Source: a virus | Length of the DNA stretch: 21,198 nucleotides | Virus record (IMG/VR): IMGVR_UViG_3300035698_010808 | Coordinates: 1-21,198 of that record | Reading direction: 5' to 3' (one strand) | Shown: in pieces, positions 3,211 through 3,577 of the stretch | How the letters are laid out: every line of letters begins with the position of its first letter | Numbering within the stretch: the stretch's first letter is position 1 | Program-made: the position numbers and the translations under genes | Notes under the pieces: generated by a model | Databases searched by the model: none | What the model saw: only the letters and a program-made list of their open reading frames with translations | What the model was told of the DNA's origin: nothing

Positions 3211-3541
3211 GAAAGGCCAGTCCGGCAATCCTTCAGGCCGTAAGAAAGGTAGTAAGAACAAATTGACCCAGGCCAAGGATAATCTCATAAAGCTTTTAAA
3301 TACACGACTTAAGAACGCCGGGAACCTGGATGATGTCTCAACCGAGTCATTAATCCGCTTCGCTTCTGCGGTAATGCCTAAAGATGTGAGCATGAGAATC
3401 AGTCCTGACTTGCAGTATGTAAGCCAAACTCCAAGGCCGTCATTATGCGGGAAAGCTACTATAAACATTGACGAAACAAAGCCTATTGATGATACCATTG
3501 GTGCAATAGTTCATGATGTGAATAGTTCAGCGGATGAATAG
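3200..3541 (+). CDS. DUF5681-type protein, candidate terminase small subunit, 113 aa
   Basis: The N-terminus reads GYKKGQSGNPSGRKKGSKNK (residues 2-21), the basic Gly-rich signature of DUF5681 proteins, which commonly sit just upstream of the large terminase gene in phages. An alpha-helical segment follows (TQAKDNLIKLLNTRLKNAG), then a polar tail. I chose the GTG at 3200, which has AGGGGG five bases upstream and puts the signature at the N-terminus as in relatives. An ATG at 3083 would add 39 residues with no family resemblance. The last 12 codons overlap the 16-bp-period repeat array. The small-terminase role (DNA recognition for packaging) is inferred from position and basic character. Confidence 0.65.
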   Translation: MGYKKGQSGNPSGRKKGSKNKLTQAKDNLIKLLNTRLKNAGNLDDVSTESLIRFASAVMPKDVSMRISPDLQYVSQTPRPSLCGKATINIDETKPIDDTIGAIVHDVNSSADE

Positions 3542-3577
3542 TACACCTAGTGAATAGTTCACCAAGTGAATAGTTAA
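3505..3577. repeat. five AATAGTTCA direct repeats with exact 16-bp period
   Basis: Cores start at 3505, 3521, 3537, 3553 and 3569. The first, second and fourth are exact AATAGTTCA, the third is AATAGTACA and the fifth AATAGTTAA. Most are preceded by GTG or ATG, and the best copy is GTGAA-TAG-TTCAC, itself a dyad. The array straddles the stop codon of the DUF5681-type gene. A further exact core lies at 2881 in the rightward promoter. Sixteen bp is one and a half helical turns, so neighbouring copies face opposite sides of the DNA. Confidence 0.8.

Follow-up and report, generated by a model that had tools for sequence, protein, structure and literature searches.

The locus and its repeat array

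The window, by which we mean the whole stretch of DNA analysed, is a linear virus record of 21,198 bp from IMG/VR (IMGVR_UViG_3300035698_010808) that holds the genome only in part, and its source is an uncultured tailed phage. A phage collection searched with window positions 2700–5300 yielded no similar DNA. The genes and features are as follows:

2874–2902, + strand: weak sigma-70-like promoter candidate, TTGAAC-17-GATACT
2881–2889, + strand: sixth exact 9-mer core, inside TGAAC-AAATA-GTTCA (2875–2889)
2900–2907, − strand: inverted 8-nt core TGAATAGT, in the same divergent intergenic region
2989–3210, + strand: small gene with a cysteine-containing product; the clade conserves it, before or after the DUF5681 gene
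3200–3541, + strand: DUF5681 protein gene (Pfam PF18932, E=1e-8) in the terS position, by synteny with terL; its stop codon (3539–3541) lies inside the third repeat
3503–3577, + strand: array of five 11-nt cores, consensus TGAATAGTTCA, starting at 3503, 3519, 3535, 3551 and 3567 (period 16, 5-nt spacers)
3571–3588, no strand: perfect palindrome TAGTTAACATGTTAACTA (18 bp), which shares bases with copy five
3542–3905, + strand: 364-nt gap before terL, apparently non-coding; in relatives a dif-like site, a small ORF or both lie here
3906–5276, + strand: large terminase gene terL (Terminase_3, profile match)
5276–7327: SU10-type portal (profile match)
9604–10536: major capsid protein (profile match)

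Further along, a cassette of glycosyltransferases, methyltransferases and a hexapeptide transferase (Pfam) sits within the structural gene block at 11016–16254.

The 9-mer cores of the array begin at 3505, 3521, 3537, 3553 and 3569, exactly 16 bp apart, and Tandem Repeats Finder delimits the array as 3505–3575 with period 16 and score 79. The initial annotation had described five such cores at 3505–3577; their positions and spacing hold, but exactness does not, as AATAGTTCA is found in three of the five copies while those at 3537 (AATAGTACA) and 3569 (AATAGTTAA) carry one change each. The dyad GTGAA-TAG-TTCAC that it pointed out is present at 3550–3562, and each repeat is an imperfect dyad of the form TGAA-TAG-TTCA. 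The array is genuine, and its period-16 self-match score of 29.4 is the highest in the window, compared with simulated maxima of 13.2 for period 16 and 15.0 for periods 9–59 (30 order-2 sequences of 21 kb with the composition of the window). With one mismatch allowed, AATAGTTCA occurs nine times over the window against 6.6 expected, which is not unusual; the significant feature is the periodicity, not the 9-mer count.

When the 16-nt units are aligned from 3503, the mean pairwise identity is 0.85 in the 11-nt core and 0.26, i.e. chance level, in the 5-nt spacer. A recent duplication is expected to show identity along the whole unit, and binding sites a contrast between core and spacer. Since here the cores are conserved and the spacers random, the array looks like a set of protein-binding sites and not like a fresh duplication. 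It is a feature of the DNA itself, since a 16-bp period is not divisible by three and the repeats run past the stop codon; the same two facts, the frame shift and the crossing, rule out a repeat at the protein level. With several direct repeats, fixed spacing, a conserved core and a variable spacer, it is ordinary in kind: an iteron-like, lineage-specific array. An RNA element was also considered and set aside, as Rfam gave no match and the RNA fold of 3580–3905 is ordinary (z = −0.55). The gap between the array and terL contains two other motifs, an imperfect dyad (C/T)CGACGAG in four copies (3619, 3774, 3835 and 3889) and a 10-bp perfect inverted repeat TTACACTACA/TGTAGTGTAA at 3793–3832.

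In the divergent intergenic region the sixth exact core and the dyad TGAAC-n5-GTTCA around it are as originally reported. The exact 9-mer is expected 0.21 times per 21 kb, and P is ~0.004 for the 262-bp intergenic stretch, which was itself chosen post hoc. The inverted core TGAATAGT, also recovered by a repeat search, had been overlooked. The rightward promoter proposed here fares less well, as it agrees with the consensus at just 8 of 12 bases and the scan does not call it. A single protein linking packaging and transcription had been suggested from the shared core. A common binding protein is plausible because the exact 9-mer at 2881 is joined by the inverted core (2907–2900) in this divergent region, and it is thus plausible that the array and the intergenic cores are bound by one putative shared protein; a link between the array and transcription is likewise plausible, but the weakness of the promoter detracts from it.

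The terS-position gene and its surroundings in relatives

The profile search with TerL returned 16 records at 58–70% (L001 and L021–L035) and L036 at 52%, and a wider repeat of the search added no further records for this group. Thirteen relatives hold the terS-position gene (L028 and L029 counted once), which encodes a DUF5681-type protein except in L036, where the product is a small terminase of gp3 type. The 16-bp array is present in none of the 13, and a scan of other viruses for the array pattern gave 13 chance-like matches, none of them an array, so that the array is confined to the virus of the window. Conservation of the 16-bp spacing in related phages had been proposed as a check, and relatives lacking the repeats despite a kept gene order had been named beforehand as the first outcome to speak against a packaging site; it is this outcome that was obtained. 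Neither a packaging function nor binding by the DUF5681 product is thus supported for the array, and the pac/small-terminase reading is one of position only.

In profile searches the DUF5681 protein itself matches nothing besides DUF5681 and functionally unassigned PHROGs, with no small-terminase family among its Pfam/PHROG matches. Its AlphaFold2 model is of low confidence (pLDDT 60), and a comparison with the small terminase of L036, which is of gp3 type, detects no similarity beyond 11 residues, so neither family nor fold places it among small terminases. In FelixO1 the DUF5681 gene has no annotated terminase next to it. The protein has a basic N-terminus of GRKKGSKNK type and a variable C-terminal tail. 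It is by position only, then, that it is a candidate small terminase. In another record (L020:5022–5378) a DUF5681-type N-terminus appears, by eye, to be fused to a GIY-YIG-like domain just upstream of terL.

Although the 16-bp array is absent from relatives, short arrays of other kinds recur around the terS-position gene. L034 has seven 11-bp tandem repeats (TACTATAGTAG, TTATTAACAGG, TTATACACAGG; 2601–2678, score 45) directly 3' of its DUF5681-like gene, the same position as in the window with an unrelated unit. On the 5' side, within 600 bp of the gene, arrays are found in L036 (13 bp), L021 (10 bp), L026 (10 bp) and L029 (9 bp), and all five exceed shuffles. Unit, period and side therefore vary while the neighbourhood stays the same. 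Repeats of TGTGTCAA and of the DnaA-box-like TTATCCACAGG/TTATTAACAGG lie just 5' of the DUF5681 gene at L029:5010–5280, L030:4910–5010 and L031:5010–5335, where a replication origin is possible. Two other observations concern these records. The major capsid gene is split by insertions of ~0.6–0.8 kb at L022:6024–7577, L023:7072–8176, L029:11304–13023 and L030:11566–13100, possibly introns or homing elements. Contig ends cluster upstream of terL, and as viral contig selection could cause such clustering, it was left unused as evidence.

What does occupy the slot of the array in eight of the 13 relatives is a single 28-mer that immediately follows the terS-position gene on its 3' side (L021:1321, L024:586, L025:340, L027:5072, L029:5771, L030:5479, L031:5779 and L036:1245). 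It starts with (A/T)GTTNACA, ~30 nt or less from the stop codon, as in these examples:

L029: AGTTAACATTT-TGTATA-TTATAGGAAGT
L024: AGTTGACATAA-CATTTA-TTATAGGTAGT
L036: AGTTCACATAA-GGTACA-TTATCGGACGT

A pattern search of five records gave one match in each and none elsewhere in them. The reverse complement of the 28-mer, ACTTCCTATAATATACATTATGTNAACT, resembles the dif site of Bacillus subtilis. A dif site consists of two 11-bp arms and a 6-bp centre (PMC5357621), and the 28-mer of the relatives is built in the same way, which makes it a putative, dif-like Xer site. In L025–L031 degeneracy is limited to the inner XerD-like arm, with the XerC-like arm and the centre intact; among the Xer-exploiting elements known as IMEX (CTXphi, TLCphi and the gonococcal island), this pattern is reported for TLCphi attP and difGGI (PMC5357621). 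A reading of the motif as a T7-like promoter was dropped, as the motif occurs once per record and fits dif; PF00940 gave no match in six records, which is weak evidence since the controls were also silent. No prophage belonging to the clade turned up in a search of bacterial genomes.

Carriers of the 28-mer have dif-like scores of 34–45, simulated maxima are 7–13 and the best score in the window is 7.4; the window, unlike the IMEX, contains no dif-like site and no XerC-like arm. It does contain, fused to the fifth repeat, the 18-bp palindrome listed above, which is its longest perfect palindrome and had been missed in the initial annotation. The half AGTTAACAT of the palindrome is identical to the outer arm that the dif-like site of the relatives has in the same slot, and the only occurrence in the window of AGTTNACAT, from that outer arm, is in this slot (P ~0.0016 per 60-nt slot).

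What may bind the array

We tentatively favour, while holding it to be well short of an even chance, a role in packaging combined with autoregulation: the DUF5681 product, whose gene overlaps the array, would bind this lineage-specific, iteron-type array and act at the start of packaging. One phage DNA-binding protein, most likely this product, would occupy both the array and the intergenic cores; binding at 2881–2907 would damp transcription of the terS–terL operon; on the array, the protein would bind the five copies co-operatively and thereby mark the DNA for the start of packaging. This proposal draws on an array beyond chance with its contrast of core and spacer, on the direct and inverted intergenic cores, on the syntenic terS-position gene with its basic N-terminus next to terL, on the short arrays that flank the same gene in relatives, eight of which use the slot for a DNA site, and on the pac of SPP1, whose repeats span a promoter and terS. 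It is weakened by the lack of the array in all relatives, by a DUF5681 protein without small-terminase match or confident fold, by the weak rightward promoter and by the SF6 terS domain, which ignores the box repeats. In addition, 16 bp correspond to ~1.5 helical turns, which would put neighbouring sites on opposite faces of the helix.

In SPP1 pac, direct repeats cover the promoters together with the first part of the small-terminase gene (PMC4737164, PMC6316719), and the DNA-binding domain of terS from the SPP1-like SF6 does not specifically recognise the box repeats (PMC4737164). SPP1/SF6 pac and the window share short direct repeats at the terS or terS-position gene and over the operon promoter (PMC4737164, PMC6316719). 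However, SPP1 pac covers the 5' end of gene 1 and its promoters and has three box families, whereas the window array lies at the 3' end of the DUF5681 gene and has one core with a fixed 16-bp period. P22 pac is one 22-bp asymmetric site inside the terS gene (PMC9611059); it is likewise tied to that gene, but as a single site and not an array. Whatever its function, the array is a clean candidate binding site, which helps to locate a packaging or maintenance signal in an uncultured phage group.

Iteron arrays at origins and partition sites resemble the window in their regular direct repeats, conserved cores and operator copies at a promoter, and the array could be the origin or centromere of a plasmid-like prophage, bound by a Rep or a ParR/ParB-like protein with the intergenic cores as autoregulatory operator. 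We consider this unlikely but worth keeping in view. The core/spacer pattern fits it, and relatives with TTATCCACAGG/TTATTAACAGG and TGTGTCAA repeats 5' of the DUF5681 gene (3' in L034) and a dif-like site 3' of it carry what looks like a plasmid-like set. On the other hand, the array lies at a terS-position gene with no recognised Rep or Par gene beside it, the window has no DnaA box against 1.6 expected, and no Rep or partition gene appears among the window proteins scanned, a set in which the left-hand genes are partly covered and which comes from a partial record.

A somewhat lower probability attaches to an operator array of a late-operon regulator with no part in packaging. It would account for the cores that overlap the spacer (2881) and −10 region (2900–2907) of the putative promoter, but that promoter is weak and the five-copy array stands at a gene end more than 600 bp from the intergenic region. 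Neutral tandem duplication at the 3' end of the gene is more improbable again: the array occurs in one virus alone and falls in the variable C-terminal tail of the DUF5681 protein, but duplication does not explain cores kept among spacers of chance identity, nor the matching cores 620 bp upstream. Least probable of all, in our estimate, is a slot that once held or still is an Xer-type site, with the array and the palindrome AGTTAACAT-GTTAACT as multiplied half-sites, for although eight relatives have the dif-like 28-mer at the same stop codon, the sole AGTTNACAT of the window is palindromic and fused to the fifth copy there, and the dif-like arm of L036 has AGTTCACA, close to array copy 4 (AGTTCACC), the window lacks a XerC-like arm, reaches a dif-like score of just 7.4, and its repeat unit resembles the arm over just 6–8 nt.

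dif-like sites beside other terminase genes

That phages of several unrelated tailed lineages carry one dif-like site close behind the small-terminase gene is more interesting and valuable than the array itself. Two scans of viral contigs for such sites yielded 14 and 50 contigs respectively, and in 49 of 49 records searched there is exactly one per record, with none for the reversed control pattern. TerL was found in 30 of the records with a site, and in nine the site lies ~0.3–1.6 kb upstream of it. Where a small terminase is matched, the gap from the match to the site is 14 nt in L118, 0 in L105, 19 in L132, 246 in L117 and 31 in L036, and in L127 the site follows a weak small-terminase match by 5 nt. 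Sites beside terminase genes of other small and large types are at:

L105: 1296
L108: 8632–8658
L118: 9164–9190
L128: 1071
L132: 5926
L087: 6652
L095: 4285
L085: 271

In Listeria phage P70 the dif-like site lies between convergent genes, far from the terminase. The literature searched yielded no report of a single dif-like site behind small-terminase genes, and the users of dif/Xer reviewed as IMEX comprise filamentous phages and genomic islands, with no tailed phage among them (PMC5357621). If the sites are used, tailed phages may exploit host Xer for integration, dimer resolution or circularisation, tied to packaging. One might go further and speculate, against rather long odds, that many tailed-phage lineages keep one dif-like site behind terS for attachment or dimer resolution, and that in the window it was replaced by, or grew into, a half-site-like array with a palindrome of the site's own arm at its end.

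L108 shows this layout too, with an unassigned small gene followed by the dif-like site, a small ORF and a large protein; its small ORF is similar to the one in the window clade (MDIDSI..AID.ID.DRD.I). A cassette of terS, dif-like site, small ORF and terL shared across different terminases is possible. The small ORF (MNIDSI..AIDRIDSDRDKI) follows the dif-like site in the L108:8632–8658 region and from L105:1323 onward, as it does in L027 and L029–L032.
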